Shown: one piece after another, positions 12,309-18,292 of the stretch
Numbering within the stretch: position 1 is the first letter of the stretch
Layout of the letters: each line of letters starts with the position of its first letter
Origin: Actinoallomurus soli
GTDB lineage: Bacteria > Actinomycetota > Actinomycetes > Streptosporangiales > Streptosporangiaceae
Assembly (NCBI RefSeq): GCF_024055715.1
Contig: NZ_JAMXMV010000003.1
Coordinates: forward strand, 558,001-622,000
Direction: 5' to 3'
DNA length: 64,000 nucleotides
Notes under the pieces: model-generated
The model's database searches: none
The model's input: only the letters and a program-made list of their open reading frames with translations
Told to the model about the DNA's origin: nothing
Translations under genes and position numbers: made by a program

Positions 12309-12701
12309 ATGCTCGACGGTGTGTCTGAGAATCTGTCCGGTTTGACGCTGCTCGGCTCGCAGGTACGGGGCCCCGTCGAGCACGTGGAGTCCTTCCCGGC
12401 GCCACAGCACTGCACGAAGGTGCGGTTCACCACGGACGAGGTGGCCTCGCTGTGCCCCGTGACCGGCCAGCCCGACCTCTCCAGCGTCGAGATCGAGTAC
12501 GTGCCGCGTGAGCGCTGCATCGAGTCCAAGTCGCTCAAGCTCTACCTGTGGTCCTTCCGGGACCGGGCGGTGTTCGCCGAGGCGCTCGCCGTGGAGATCG
12601 CCACGGAGGTGAAGCGGGCGACCGACCCGGTGTCCGTTCGTGTCGTGATCACCCAGCACGCGCGGGGCGGCATCGTGACCGAAGCCACCGCCGAGCTGTA
12701 G
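12309..12701 (+). CDS. queF: NADPH-dependent preQ0 reductase (7-cyano-7-deazaguanine reductase)
   Basis: QueF reduces the nitrile of preQ0 to the aminomethyl group of preQ1 with two NADPH. The 130-residue protein is a short, single-domain form. It shows LTLLG near the start, SLCPVTGQPD with the catalytic Cys and the conserved Asp, and ESKSLKLYLWSF, the family NADPH-binding signature that separates reductases from amidinotransferase-like relatives. In Bacillus QueF the next segment is FHED, with His and Glu binding substrate. Here it is FAEA, so the Glu is kept and the His is Ala. The ATG at 12309 is used, but GTG at 12321 is also possible. It is the first gene of a four-gene operon, nine bases before the transglycosylase gene. 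Confidence 0.92.
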   Translation: MLDGVSENLSGLTLLGSQVRGPVEHVESFPAPQHCTKVRFTTDEVASLCPVTGQPDLSSVEIEYVPRERCIESKSLKLYLWSFRDRAVFAEALAVEIATEVKRATDPVSVRVVITQHARGGIVTEATAEL

Positions 12702-12710
12702 GCGGCGCCC

Positions 12711-13844
12711 GTGGCACGTGCCCGCGGCGCGCCCGCGGCCAACACCCTGCGGGTGCCGATCGACGCCCCGACGAGCCTGCGGACCCGGCGGGGTGAGCTG
12801 ACCCTGCCGGTGTTCGTACCCGACGCGACGCGCGCCGTGGTGCGCGGGGTGCCCACCGACCGGCTGTCCGACGCGCACGTCTCCGCGCTGCTGGTGAGCA
12901 CCGCGCACCTGGCGACGCAGCCGGGCGCCTCGGTCGTCGGCGCGCTCGGCGGGGTGCACCGGTTCATGGGCTGGTCCGGCCCGATGATCTCCGACTCCGG
13001 CGGCTTCCAGGCGTTCTCGCTGCTCTCGAGCCAGCAGGGGCTGGCGGAGGTGACCGACGCGGGCCTGACCTACCGGTTCTCCACGAAGCAGAAGTACCGC
13101 CAGCTCACCCCGCAGAGCTGCATCCAGACGCAGCTGCGTCTCGGCGCGGACATCGTCTACTGCCTGGACTACTGCACCAGCCCGTCCGCGCCGGCCGAGG
13201 AGCAGCGGCGCAGCGTCGAGCTGACGCTGCGGTGGGCGGCCGAGTGCCGCGAGGCGTTCGACCGGCTGGTCGCCGACCGCCCGGTGGAGGACCGCCCGCT
13301 GCTCTTCGCCGTCGTCCAGGGCGGGCCCGACGAGGAGCTCCGCGCCCGGTGCGCGGAGGCGCTGGTCGACATCGGCTTCGACGGGTACGGCTTCGGCGGG
13401 TACCCGATCGCGGACGGCCGCCTGGTCGACGAGGTCCGCCTGGTCGGCGAGCTGCTGCCGGCGGGTACGCCGCTGCACGGGCTCGGCATCGGCACCCCGG
13501 AGAACCTCATCGAGTCGTGGCAGTCGGGGTACGGCATCTTCGACTGCACGCTGCCGACCCGCAACGCCCGCCGCGGCGTGCTCTACACCCGCCTCGACGT
13601 CGACGCCATCGGCAGTGGCCGGCCGTACCGCATCGCGCGGCTGAACGACGAGCGCTGGGTGCGGGAGAAGGGCCCCATCGACCCGGACTGCGACTGCCCG
13701 ATGTGCACGACGCTGCCGGGCGGCACCGTGGCGCACCTGTTCCGCATCGAGGACGCGCTGGCCGGGACCCTCGCGTCACTGCACAACCTGCGCTTCTACA
13801 CGCGGCTGACCGAGGCGCTGCACCGGCTGGGCGCCGAGGCATGA
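12711..13844 (+). CDS. Queuine/archaeosine-type tRNA-guanine transglycosylase family protein
   Basis: TGT exchanges guanine in RNA for a 7-deazaguanine base. The 377-residue protein keeps the expected catalytic set: ISDSGGFQAFS (general-acid/base Asp), DYCTSP (substrate-recognition Asp), VQGG (Gln), GFGG, and FDCTLPTRNARRG with the nucleophile Asp. The zinc ligands are CDCPMC plus a later His. It nevertheless differs from standard bacterial enzymes around the base pocket and between RNARRG and the zinc site. A normal queuosine tRNA enzyme is the simplest reading. A paralogue with another nucleic-acid target is possible given that it is translationally coupled (ATGA) to an rRNA-methyltransferase gene. 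The GTG start at 12711 has only a weak ribosome site. Confidence 0.88.
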   Translation: MARARGAPAANTLRVPIDAPTSLRTRRGELTLPVFVPDATRAVVRGVPTDRLSDAHVSALLVSTAHLATQPGASVVGALGGVHRFMGWSGPMISDSGGFQAFSLLSSQQGLAEVTDAGLTYRFSTKQKYRQLTPQSCIQTQLRLGADIVYCLDYCTSPSAPAEEQRRSVELTLRWAAECREAFDRLVADRPVEDRPLLFAVVQGGPDEELRARCAEALVDIGFDGYGFGGYPIADGRLVDEVRLVGELLPAGTPLHGLGIGTPENLIESWQSGYGIFDCTLPTRNARRGVLYTRLDVDAIGSGRPYRIARLNDERWVREKGPIDPDCDCPMCTTLPGGTVAHLFRIEDALAGTLASLHNLRFYTRLTEALHRLGAEA

Positions 13845-16906: not shown

Positions 16907-17545
16907 TCAGGCGATCCCAATGTACTTGTGCGTCTGCAGGCTCAACCGCCACTGCGGATGCCGCAGGCAGTACTCGACGGCCGCGCTGGTGTTGGCGTCG
17001 CGGTCCGGGCCGTCCATCGGCTGGATGAGGAAGTGGTCGAAGGCCAGCCGCTCGAAGCGCTCCGGCGGCGCGGTCTCCTGGGGGTACACCAGCTTGAGCT
17101 CGTTGCCGCTGGTGAGGACCAGCTCGGTGTTCGCCTTCGGGCTCACGCAGATCCAGTCGAGCCCCTCGGGCGCCGGCCGGGTGCCGTTGGTCTCGACCGC
17201 GACCTCGAACCCCTCGGCGTGCAGGGCGTCGACGGCCTCCCGGTCCAGTTGCAGCAGCGGCTCACCGCCGGTGCACACGACGTACGGCCGGCTGAGCGGG
17301 TGCGCCGCCCCGCGCCACATCTTGGCGACGGCGGCGGCCAGCTCGGCGGCGGTACGGAACCGCCCGCCCCCGGGCCCGTCGGTGCCGACGAAGTCGGTGT
17401 CGCAGAACTGGCAGATCGCGCGGTGCCGGTCCTTCTCTCGGCCCGTCCACAGGTTGCAGCTGGTGAACCGGCAGAACACCGCCGCCCGCCCGGCCTGCAT
17501 CCCTTCGCCCTGCAGGGTGTAGAAGATCTCCTTGATCCGGTACAC
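16907..17545 (-). CDS. queE: 7-carboxy-7-deazaguanine synthase (radical SAM)
   Basis: QueE contracts carboxytetrahydropterin to the 7-deazapurine CDG. The 212-residue protein opens with KEIFYTLQGEGMQAGR, the family N-terminus. The cluster motif has the expanded spacing typical of one QueE subgroup: CNLWTG, 14 intervening residues, then CQFC. VVCTGGEPLLQ is the SAM-binding strand and VAVETNGT follows, as does CVSPKAN. The GTG start at 17545 is six bases after the queC stop, consistent with coupling. Confidence 0.92.
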   Translation of the reverse strand: MYRIKEIFYTLQGEGMQAGRAAVFCRFTSCNLWTGREKDRHRAICQFCDTDFVGTDGPGGGRFRTAAELAAAVAKMWRGAAHPLSRPYVVCTGGEPLLQLDREAVDALHAEGFEVAVETNGTRPAPEGLDWICVSPKANTELVLTSGNELKLVYPQETAPPERFERLAFDHFLIQPMDGPDRDANTSAAVEYCLRHPQWRLSLQTHKYIGIA

Positions 17546-17551
17546 CGTCGT

Positions 17552-18292
17552 CTAGCCGACTTTCGCGGTGAGTGACGGATCGGTCATGCCCAGCTCCGCG
17601 AACCCGCGGTTGCGCAGCAGGCAGGAGTCGCACGTGCCGCACGGCCGGCCGTCGACCGGGTCGTAGCAGCTGTGGCTGAGGGAGTAGTCGACGCCGAGCT
17701 CCAGGCCCCGCGCGATCGTCTGGGCCTTGCTGAGGTCGATCAGCGGGGTGTGGATGCGCAGCCGCTGGCGGCCCTCCACGCCGGCCTTGGTGGCGAGGTT
17801 GGCCATCCGCTCGAACGCCTCGATGTACTCGGGCCGGCAGTCGGGGTAGCCGCTGTAGTCCACGGCGCTGACGCCGAGGAAGACGTCCTGCGCGCCGAGC
17901 GTCTCGGCCCAGGCGAGCGCGAAGGACAGGAAGATGGTGTTGCGGGCCGGCACGTACGTGACCGGGATCTCCTCGCTCAGATCCTCGGTGCTGTCGTGGT
18001 GCGGCACGCCGATCGTGTCGTCGGTGAGCGCCGAGCCGCCGAACGTCCGCAGATCGATGTCGGCGATGACGTGCCGGCGGGCGCCCAGGGACTCGGCGAC
18101 CGCCCGTGCCGCCTCGAGTTCGACGCTGTGCCGCTGTCCGTAGCGGAAGCTCAGAGCGTAGGGCTCGTAGCCCTCGGCGACCGCGATCGCGAGCACTGTC
18201 GCGGAGTCCAAGCCCCCGCTGAGCAGGATGACGGCCTTCGGCTTCGCAGCCCCGTCGCCCGTCGTTGTGTCCAGGGTCCTTGGCGAATTCAC
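17552..18292 (-). CDS. queC: 7-cyano-7-deazaguanine (preQ0) synthase
   Basis: QueC converts CDG to preQ0 with ATP and ammonia. The 246-residue protein has the PP-loop LLSGGLDSAT, YVPARNTIFLSFA, GVSAVDYSGYPDCRPE, and the zinc site HSCYD plus CGTCDSCLLRNRGF, all classical. The GTG at 18292 is the only good start and has a weak ribosome site. It is the first gene of the queC-queE-queD operon. The first enzyme of the route (GTP cyclohydrolase I) and the queuosine-completing enzymes QueA and QueG/QueH are not in the window. Confidence 0.93.
   Translation of the reverse strand: MNSPRTLDTTTGDGAAKPKAVILLSGGLDSATVLAIAVAEGYEPYALSFRYGQRHSVELEAARAVAESLGARRHVIADIDLRTFGGSALTDDTIGVPHHDSTEDLSEEIPVTYVPARNTIFLSFALAWAETLGAQDVFLGVSAVDYSGYPDCRPEYIEAFERMANLATKAGVEGRQRLRIHTPLIDLSKAQTIARGLELGVDYSLSHSCYDPVDGRPCGTCDSCLLRNRGFAELGMTDPSLTAKVG

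Follow-up and report, generated by a model that had tools for sequence, protein, structure and literature searches.

7-Deazaguanine chemistry is known to us from tRNA and DNA only. The presence of a tgt gene, named after the tRNA-guanine transglycosylase (TGT), next to the plasmid-borne 16S rRNA methyltransferase genes rmtG and rmtD1 is already in print as a gene neighbourhood. According to the accessible text of the reports, rmtG forms an operon with rsmH, tgt and 'rsmL' (PMC9311965), a putative tRNA ribosyltransferase is encoded upstream of rmtG (PMC3904158), and an IS91-rmtD1-tgt-groEL-IS91 arrangement has been described (PMC8446631). In the literature searched, the coverage of which was partial with subscription papers mostly outside, we found no function proposed for tgt in the rmt loci. 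Here we analyzed a stretch of 64,000 nucleotides from Actinoallomurus soli (positions 558,001 to 622,000 of contig NZ_JAMXMV010000003.1; referred to as the window), which encodes a TGT paralogue, termed rTGT, together with two homologues of Arm-type G1405 methyltransferases, an RsmI domain and the enzymes QueC, QueD, QueE and QueF. Judged from the sequence comparisons, rTGT represents a new TGT subfamily which is tied to aminoglycoside resistance and whose target is probably rRNA.

The plus-strand operon of the module begins with queF (12309..12701), which codes for a type II preQ1 synthase (TIGR03139 QueF-II, 102.9 bits, cut-off 86.9). It is followed by the rTGT gene (12711..13844; PF01702, 286.8 bits, cut-off 26.3), by arm1 encoding an FmrO-type 16S rRNA G1405 methyltransferase homologue (13841..14704; PF07091, 256 bits, cut-off 27), and by a gene for an Arm2-RsmI fusion protein (14691..16535; PF07091, 142.9 bits, cut-off 27; TIGR00096, 200.6 bits, cut-off 167.9). 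The spacings between these four genes are 9, -4 and -14 bp. The minus strand carries queC (17552..18292; TIGR00364, 215.1 bits, cut-off 150.3), queE of the Cx14CxxC type (16907..17545; TIGR04508, 364.7 bits, cut-off 240) and queD (16552..16920; TIGR03367, 112.6 bits, cut-off 89.25). As queD lies on the opposite strand at a distance of only 16 bp from the fusion gene, the two operons converge. All four Que proteins score above their family cut-offs (NCBIfam; QueD via TIGR03367). The coordinates and profile scores thus bear out the original prediction that queF, tgt, Arm-type genes and an RsmI domain form one plus-strand operon facing queC-queE-queD. The two arm genes and the RsmI domain it had named are all present, with the refinement that the second Arm and RsmI are a single protein, in which a long linker of low complexity connects Arm2 (residues ~1-270) with a C1402 2'-O-methyltransferase domain of the RsmI type (residues ~383-604). 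For Arm1 as well as for Arm2 the closest solved relative is Sgm, and both Arm parts remain below the cut-off of the Rmt equivalog NF000466 (163 and 181 bits, cut-off 250). With 28% identity they are diverged paralogues, and one or both of them may have a target other than G1405. No preQ1 riboswitch was found at the gathering threshold in the seven source sequences scanned.

Relatives of the window TGT were found on plasmids as well as in genomes. It matched 68 plasmid records, of which the best 12 score 256-262 bits and the rest of the 60 listed at most 204 bits. These 12 records carry rmtG (eight records), rmtD (two) or rmtB2 (two), in each case at most 1 kb from the TGT gene, and the thirteenth record is a canonical tgt-yajC-secDF locus. 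In six of the eight rmtG records rsmH is listed before tgt, and in locus L088 rmtG is followed by an open reading frame (ORF) matching RsmI over the first third of its domain. The plasmid rTGT loci are flanked by mobile elements. No rTGT was found by score in viral contigs, which contain four TGT relatives (three of 274-298 bits and a partial one of 213 bits).

When the GTDB species genomes were scanned with the window TGT, the best 80 of 550 relatives being kept, these contained close relatives in Microtetraspora sp. NBRC 13810 (G016, locus L008, 71%) and in an Acidimicrobiia metagenome bin (G452, locus L009, 48%). In both, the TGT gene has two Arm genes and one RsmI gene in its vicinity, in differing orders. 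A profile built from six rTGT sequences was applied to partly overlapping genome samples of the phylum, family and class of the host and to the order of the Acidimicrobiia bin; the threshold of E <= 1e-92 in the latter three scans means that rTGT members of ~310-400 bits may have been missed. Among 396 phylum genomes the window TGT, itself a profile member, reached 600 bits and other TGTs among the matches listed at most 297 bits. The 297 family genomes yielded the host (G000), the Microtetraspora genome and two genomes of one genus, G588 and G526, which are not part of the profile (524 bits each). One further carrier from another family, G1012 (L140, 409 bits), was detected among 394 class genomes, and the 248 genomes of the Acidimicrobiia bin's order gave the bin only. 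The module of G588 (L121) reads queD, queC / queF, distant queE, tgt, arm1, arm2, rsmI; that of G526 (L122) is the same minus arm1 and has in addition a gene for an RsmB/F-type methyltransferase on the other side (L122:520-1479). In G1012 the order is rsmI, tgt, queC, queE, queD, arm1, queF, with arm2 5 kb away. A tree of 12 Arm rows, from which G1012 is absent and to which L122 contributes no Arm1, supports the Arm1 group with 99/98.

Taken together we found nine kinds of rTGT loci. Five come from genomes belonging to the class of the host and one from the Acidimicrobiia bin, and the remaining three are the plasmid types with rmtG, rmtD and rmtB2. An Arm/Rmt gene is located within ~3.5 kb of tgt in all nine, and a C1402-type gene (RsmI/RsmH) is nearby in seven. 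As a control, an Arm/Rmt profile built from the window, L008, L009 and three plasmid loci, all of which it recovers, matched none of the 78 other TGT loci kept from the GTDB species genomes (L010-L087) in a scan of frames of at least 80 aa at E <= 1e-3, with flanks of up to 10 kb, many of them ended by contig ends. Searching the 297-genome family sample with PF07091 (E <= 1e-15) returned the same four genomes as rTGT and no other. If the two draws of 297 genomes are identical, which we infer from their lists, the probability of this coincidence is 1/C(297,4)=3e-9, two of the four genomes sharing a genus. The association of tgt with Arm genes exceeds chance. The original prediction had made conservation of the gene order in relatives a decisive point; it is the gene set that stays together, and the order itself varies.

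The nine rTGTs form one clade against 27 other TGTs with a support of 99/98 in a 36-row tree, and of 98/93 in a 42-row tree with eight rTGTs; all trees (85 of 97 rows, 42 rows and 36 rows) were calculated on chosen rows with near-copies and others omitted. The nearest rows, with weak support, are Patescibacteria-type TGTs, which share D38, F228 and an insertion after FSL with rTGT and one of which lies in a queA-tgt pair. From this placement rTGT may have originated from a tRNA enzyme of the Patescibacteria type. A PDAT motif (37-40) was considered as a mark of rTGT and rejected, as three Patescibacteria-type TGTs have PDAT and the G1012 enzyme has PDGT. The Patescibacteria-type TGTs of L015, L012 and L027 have PDAT where canonical enzymes have PVGT, and F at position 228; in L027 such a TGT is paired with queA.

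The profile TIGR00449 (261.6 bits) together with the catalytic and zinc residues places the window TGT in the TGT superfamily. All nine rTGTs keep the catalytic residues D95, D153, Q203 and D278 and the zinc ligands C327, C329, C332 and H358. They also have C155, the equivalent of Cys158 of the Zymomonas TGT, a cysteine which the accessible text of a study of that enzyme ties to preQ1 affinity (PMC3660597). Against the tRNA-G34 equivalog TIGR00430 the window TGT reaches 271.5 bits with a cut-off of 306.75 bits, and seven of the eight rTGTs scored (L009 lies outside this scoring) fall below; the controls, an Escherichia and a Dojkabacteria TGT, score 636.5 and 333.6 bits. The changes concern the base pocket. 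A proline at position 232 is present in all nine rTGTs and in none of 89 other TGTs (53 Ser, 33 Ala, 2 Val, 1 His), and position 231 is Trp or Tyr in the nine (Y231-P232 in the window) and Leu, Val, Phe or Arg in the others. Glu235 occurs in 86/86 canonical rows, which include many close Shewanella sequences, in 2/3 Patescibacteria-type rows and in only 1/9 rTGT rows. The pocket position of P232 was taken from the sequence alignment with the Zymomonas TGT, whose numbering agrees here. In that enzyme a flip of the 231/232 peptide together with Glu235 is described as the switch between preQ1 and guanine: with preQ1 bound the carbonyl points toward the base and the NH of residue 232 bonds Glu235, with guanine bound the NH points toward the base (PMC3660597). 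Having no backbone NH, P232 has none to offer to guanine. The rTGT pocket thus appears biased to preQ1, or to a guanine with a substituent at its 7-position.

Among the three plasmid lineages the TGT genes have a ratio of nonsynonymous to synonymous substitution rates (dN/dS) of 0.17-0.20 (NG86), and for the three pairs of lineages the identity of TGT exceeds that of the neighbouring Rmt (77 vs 58, 66 vs 40 and 67 vs 43%). This is unlike the expectation for a passenger gene. For the Arm1 pair of the window and G588 dN/dS is 0.64. The genes compared, six for TGT and five for Arm/Rmt, showed no internal stops.

We also asked where preQ1 (7-aminomethyl-7-deazaguanine) could come from. The queC, queD, queE and queF genes are contained in the module of all five class genomes, all in open frames, queE of G526 and G588 being of the distant type (34-36% over ~146 aa). 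A PF01702 search of the window's genome matched one TGT, the rTGT itself, and no second TGT was found in G000, G016, G526 and G588 (PF01702) or in G1012 (rTGT profile, E <= 1e-30). The original prediction had regarded a single tgt in the genome as speaking against a dedicated system; formally there is a single tgt in the host, but this sole copy is the divergent paralogue. The separate canonical tgt with queA which it had proposed to look for was not found in the window's host and exists in the Acidimicrobiia bin, where a canonical TGT gene beside queA is present in addition to rTGT. No que genes were matched beside the Acidimicrobiia rTGT, the contig starting within 0.4 kb of the gene, and none are listed in the plasmid rTGT stretches read. 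The host has a QueA-like gene (PF02547) on another contig (G000:C57:26550-27542). We do not regard it as a sign of a queuosine pathway, because such a gene is found in 26/41 genomes of the relatives set (host included), among them all seven same-genus genomes without a detected TGT; the host QueA was accordingly discarded as proof of this pathway. QueA-like proteins are common in the relatives, although a TGT was matched in only 4/60 of them. RsmI gave two matches in the host genome, that of the module (203 bits) and a weaker one elsewhere (136.3 bits).

On balance we favour, if by a limited measure of confidence, the explanation that the module serves the self-resistance of an aminoglycoside-type producer and that rTGT puts preQ1 into 16S rRNA near the decoding site. 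We infer the substrate, the inserted base and the guanine exchanged. In this proposal several enzymes would jointly remodel the decoding site in helix 44: the Arm-type enzymes would methylate guanine N7 (G1405 in the characterised relatives), the RsmI domain would act on C1402, and rTGT would replace a guanine in this part of the rRNA with preQ1, for the synthesis of which the module encodes QueD, QueE, QueC and QueF. The module would bring its own que genes because the host shows no queuosine pathway; in hosts with such a pathway (the plasmid-carrying Enterobacterales and the Acidimicrobiia bin) rTGT could travel without visible que genes. With preQ1 a positive group would be placed at the 7-position of the guanine and N7 would be gone, at the edge which aminoglycosides contact at G1405. 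The accessible text on plazomicin describes that the drug contacts G1405 at N7/O6 and, with its central ring, G1494 and U1495, and attributes resistance through m7G1405 to clash and charge (PMC8195987). G1405 and G1494 would be the favoured candidate guanines. The conserved partners of rTGT (Arm/Rmt, RsmI, RsmH and once RsmB/F) belong to 16S rRNA families, the first three of which act on helix 44. Sgm and RmtC are reported to block methylation of C1407 by RsmF, and ArmA to block RsmI at C1402 (PMC12406665, accessible part). A dedicated RsmI or RsmH may thus restore what the Arm enzyme disturbs.

The original prediction had left two readings. Its undescribed rRNA modification system with a TGT paralogue appears to be the better supported one, in view of the association, the phylogeny, the selection and the active-site changes. 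The queuosine locus that captured resistance genes was dropped as first choice, since the TGT belongs to a separate clade, has an Arm/Rmt gene nearby in 9/9 cases and occurs in the Acidimicrobiia bin alongside a canonical queA-tgt pair.

Several points weigh against 16S rRNA as the substrate of rTGT or against a joint action of the module's enzymes. The canonical TGT reads UGU in an anticodon loop, whereas G1405 lies in CGU. As 7-deazaguanine has no N7, a single guanine cannot carry the end products of Arm and rTGT together, except where rTGT expels N7-methylguanine (m7G). The Patescibacteria-type TGTs likewise have D38, F228 and the insertion after FSL, which are therefore no mark of rRNA, and the rmtB2-linked rTGT exceeds the TIGR00430 cut-off (317.7 vs 306.75 bits). 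No C1402 enzyme could be recognised in the rmtD and rmtB2 stretches. The dN/dS of TGT among the window, G016 and G588 is 0.36-0.43, higher than in the plasmid lineages. With 93% and 86% completeness, G526 and G588 could possess a canonical TGT which was missed. According to the accessible part of one report, RmtD alone confers a minimal inhibitory concentration of kanamycin of >1,024 mg/L in E. coli (PMC12406665), hence rTGT is not required for resistance to that drug.

The alternative that survives best, a possible but clearly less probable one, is that rTGT modifies the wobble guanine G34 of tRNA to preQ1 or queuosine, tRNA and rRNA modification being paired so as to let cells tolerate aminoglycosides or the impaired decoding that m7G1405 brings about. 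The TGT families are known above all for acting on tRNA, tgt has been linked to aminoglycoside tolerance in Vibrio, and all catalytic residues of rTGT are canonical; the score of the rmtB2-linked TGT above the tRNA equivalog cut-off points in the same direction. Most Arm enzymes, moreover, are said in the accessible text to perturb decoding fidelity (PMC12406665). A second tRNA enzyme would, however, be idle in the Acidimicrobiia bin and in K. pneumoniae, as a canonical TGT already exists in both, in the latter on a chromosome-sized record (189 bits). The base pocket is uniformly changed throughout the clade (P232 in all, E235 lost in 8/9), and the QueA-like protein of the host is no evidence for a queuosine pathway, given its presence in 7/7 same-genus genomes without a found TGT.

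A variant of the rRNA proposal that we consider doubtful is a two-step edit, in which Arm would make m7G at a decoding-site guanine and thereby weaken the glycosidic bond, and rTGT would eject m7G and insert preQ1. The guanine would be G1405 or, for the second Arm paralogue, another one. Such an edit would explain why a methyltransferase gene of the N7-guanine type lies near every rTGT found, as well as P232 and the loss of Glu235 in 8/9. If true, we know of no earlier case of a transglycosylated base in rRNA.

It is improbable that the products of tgt and the que genes take part in the synthesis of an aminoglycoside or nucleoside antibiotic containing 7-deazaguanine, with Arm and RsmI as ordinary self-resistance. 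7-Deazapurine antibiotics exist, and the modules of the window, G016 and G1012 lie among biosynthetic-looking genes. All 12 plasmid rTGTs, however, are beside rmtG, rmtD or rmtB2, and the 6-13 kb covered in these records contain no annotated biosynthetic genes; none were recognised in L121 (13.6 kb) and L122 (7.0 kb) either. Slightly less probable still is an action on another nucleic acid (DNA, 23S rRNA, an invading phage or plasmid) in the manner of DpdA, a TGT homologue which exemplifies that such enzymes are able to move to a new nucleic acid. The similarity of the module to DpdA is very weak (16.6 bits), the QueC model (65.3 bits) is the only Dpd partner matched by the seven module proteins, which places the module outside the Dpd systems, and the conserved partners of rTGT are families acting on 16S rRNA. 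Least probable of all is that tgt is a passenger which by chance came to lie near an ancestral arm/rmt gene: mobile elements do surround the plasmid loci, but the partners stay together in shuffled orders (queF-tgt-arm1-arm2, rsmI-tgt-queC-queE-queD-arm1-queF, rsmH-tgt-rmtG, tgt-MPE-rmtB2) and the plasmid TGT is more constrained than Rmt.

The genes around the module point to a biosynthetic gene cluster. On the minus strand we find an ORF with a PIG-L (de-N-acetylase) domain (881..2263; PF02585, 60.3 bits, residues 185-323), the gene probably being its downstream part. It is followed by an APH(3') aminoglycoside phosphotransferase (1720..2532; NF033068 equivalog, 230.3 bits, cut-off 205), which among solved structures is closest to aminoglycoside phosphotransferases, mainly of the APH(3') type, and by a class III aminotransferase (2534..3889; PF00202) with a 53% homologue in the Microtetraspora cluster (blastp). 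Further genes on this strand encode a B12-binding radical SAM protein (3886..5770, start approximate, within the ORF 3886-7056; PF02310 and PF04055), with a 57% homologue in the Microtetraspora cluster (tblastn), and a FAD-dependent oxidoreductase (DAO; 5769..7217; PF01266). The plus strand encodes a carboxymuconolactone decarboxylase/AhpD-like protein (8304..8771; PF02627), an IolG-like inositol dehydrogenase (8817..9896; TIGR04380, 291.2 bits, below the cut-off of 355) and an ORF with a class I methyltransferase as its C-terminal half (9095..10891; PF08241). A minus-strand ORF (9674..12253) contains a YydG-like radical SAM domain near its N-terminus (PF04055; TIGR04078, 84.5 bits, below cut-off). 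The G1012 cluster has homologues of the AhpD, IolG, methyltransferase and radical SAM genes (71, 60, 69 and 30%) and, from reading the translations, apparent homologues of the B12 radical SAM and FAD genes. The initial 12 kb of the window, together with the 20 kb in front of it, also code for a DegT-type aminotransferase, a glycosyltransferase-like protein and a GMC-type oxidoreductase, of which the last has a 52% homologue in the Microtetraspora cluster. The closest solved relative of the DegT-type enzyme is L-glutamine:2-deoxy-scyllo-inosose aminotransferase (E 2.7e-107). A protein of the Microtetraspora cluster has 2-deoxy-scyllo-inosose synthase as its best solved relative (258 bits; next 174). 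A tblastn search with this protein over 538101-622000 of the contig that holds the window gave no synthase of this kind, so that the product class is deduced from the relatives and the APH. The window and at least one relative appear to lie in 2-deoxystreptamine-like aminoglycoside clusters.

Some further observations concern the surroundings. A gene for an MFS transporter (18529-20094, minus strand) adjoins queC and has a 67% homologue in L121 (1-1041), there ~6 kb from queD; it is perhaps a further shared part of the module. At 10900-12253 (minus strand) the radical SAM frame enters degenerate repeats (RPAVSG.DH) and continues through the methyltransferase gene of the opposite strand. From their translations, two proteins encoded at 21310-24968 (minus strand) are secreted-looking and glycoside hydrolase-like with apparent carbohydrate-binding domains. 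A single open frame of 7133 aa occupies 42509-63910 (minus strand), and from ~58 kb onward the GC content is lower and the GC skew negative. Next to the Microtetraspora module (L008, 4134-9400) the translations suggest genes for a carrier-protein-thioesterase, a dioxygenase-like and a cysteine-synthase-like protein, with the look of a peptide cluster.

The pairing of rTGT with Arm/Rmt across distant bacteria and hospital plasmids suggests an unrecognised way of altering the decoding site. If rTGT acts on 16S rRNA, 7-deazaguanine chemistry reaches the ribosomal decoding site, and among the aminoglycoside-resistance loci that have spread in the clinic there would be some with a second enzyme modifying rRNA, overlooked so far under its annotation as a tRNA gene. 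Even with a tRNA substrate, the link of a TGT subfamily to ribosomal aminoglycoside resistance in such distant bacteria calls for an explanation.

Comparing the module with known systems, the Dpd DNA modification systems likewise combine a TGT homologue, DpdA, with preQ0-pathway genes; the module differs from them by its marginal DpdA score of 16.6 bits and by having no Dpd partner other than QueC. With the bacterial tRNA-guanine(34) transglycosylase Tgt, rTGT has in common PF01702, the catalytic and zinc residues and the preQ1-type cysteine; it departs from Tgt in forming a separate clade, in P232 and the loss of E235 in 8/9, in the scores of 7/8 members below the equivalog cut-off and in its tie to Arm/Rmt genes. 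Producers protect themselves with Sgm/FmrO methyltransferases, to which Arm1 and Arm2 are homologous; unlike these, the window module joins two Arm paralogues, RsmI, a TGT and preQ1 synthesis. The plasmid loci rsmH-tgt-rmtG-rsmI', tgt-rmtD and tgt-rmtB2 differ from the window in that no que genes are listed in the stretches read, and they resemble it in that a member of the rTGT clade neighbours a G1405 methyltransferase and, in the rmtG case, genes of the C1402 type as well.

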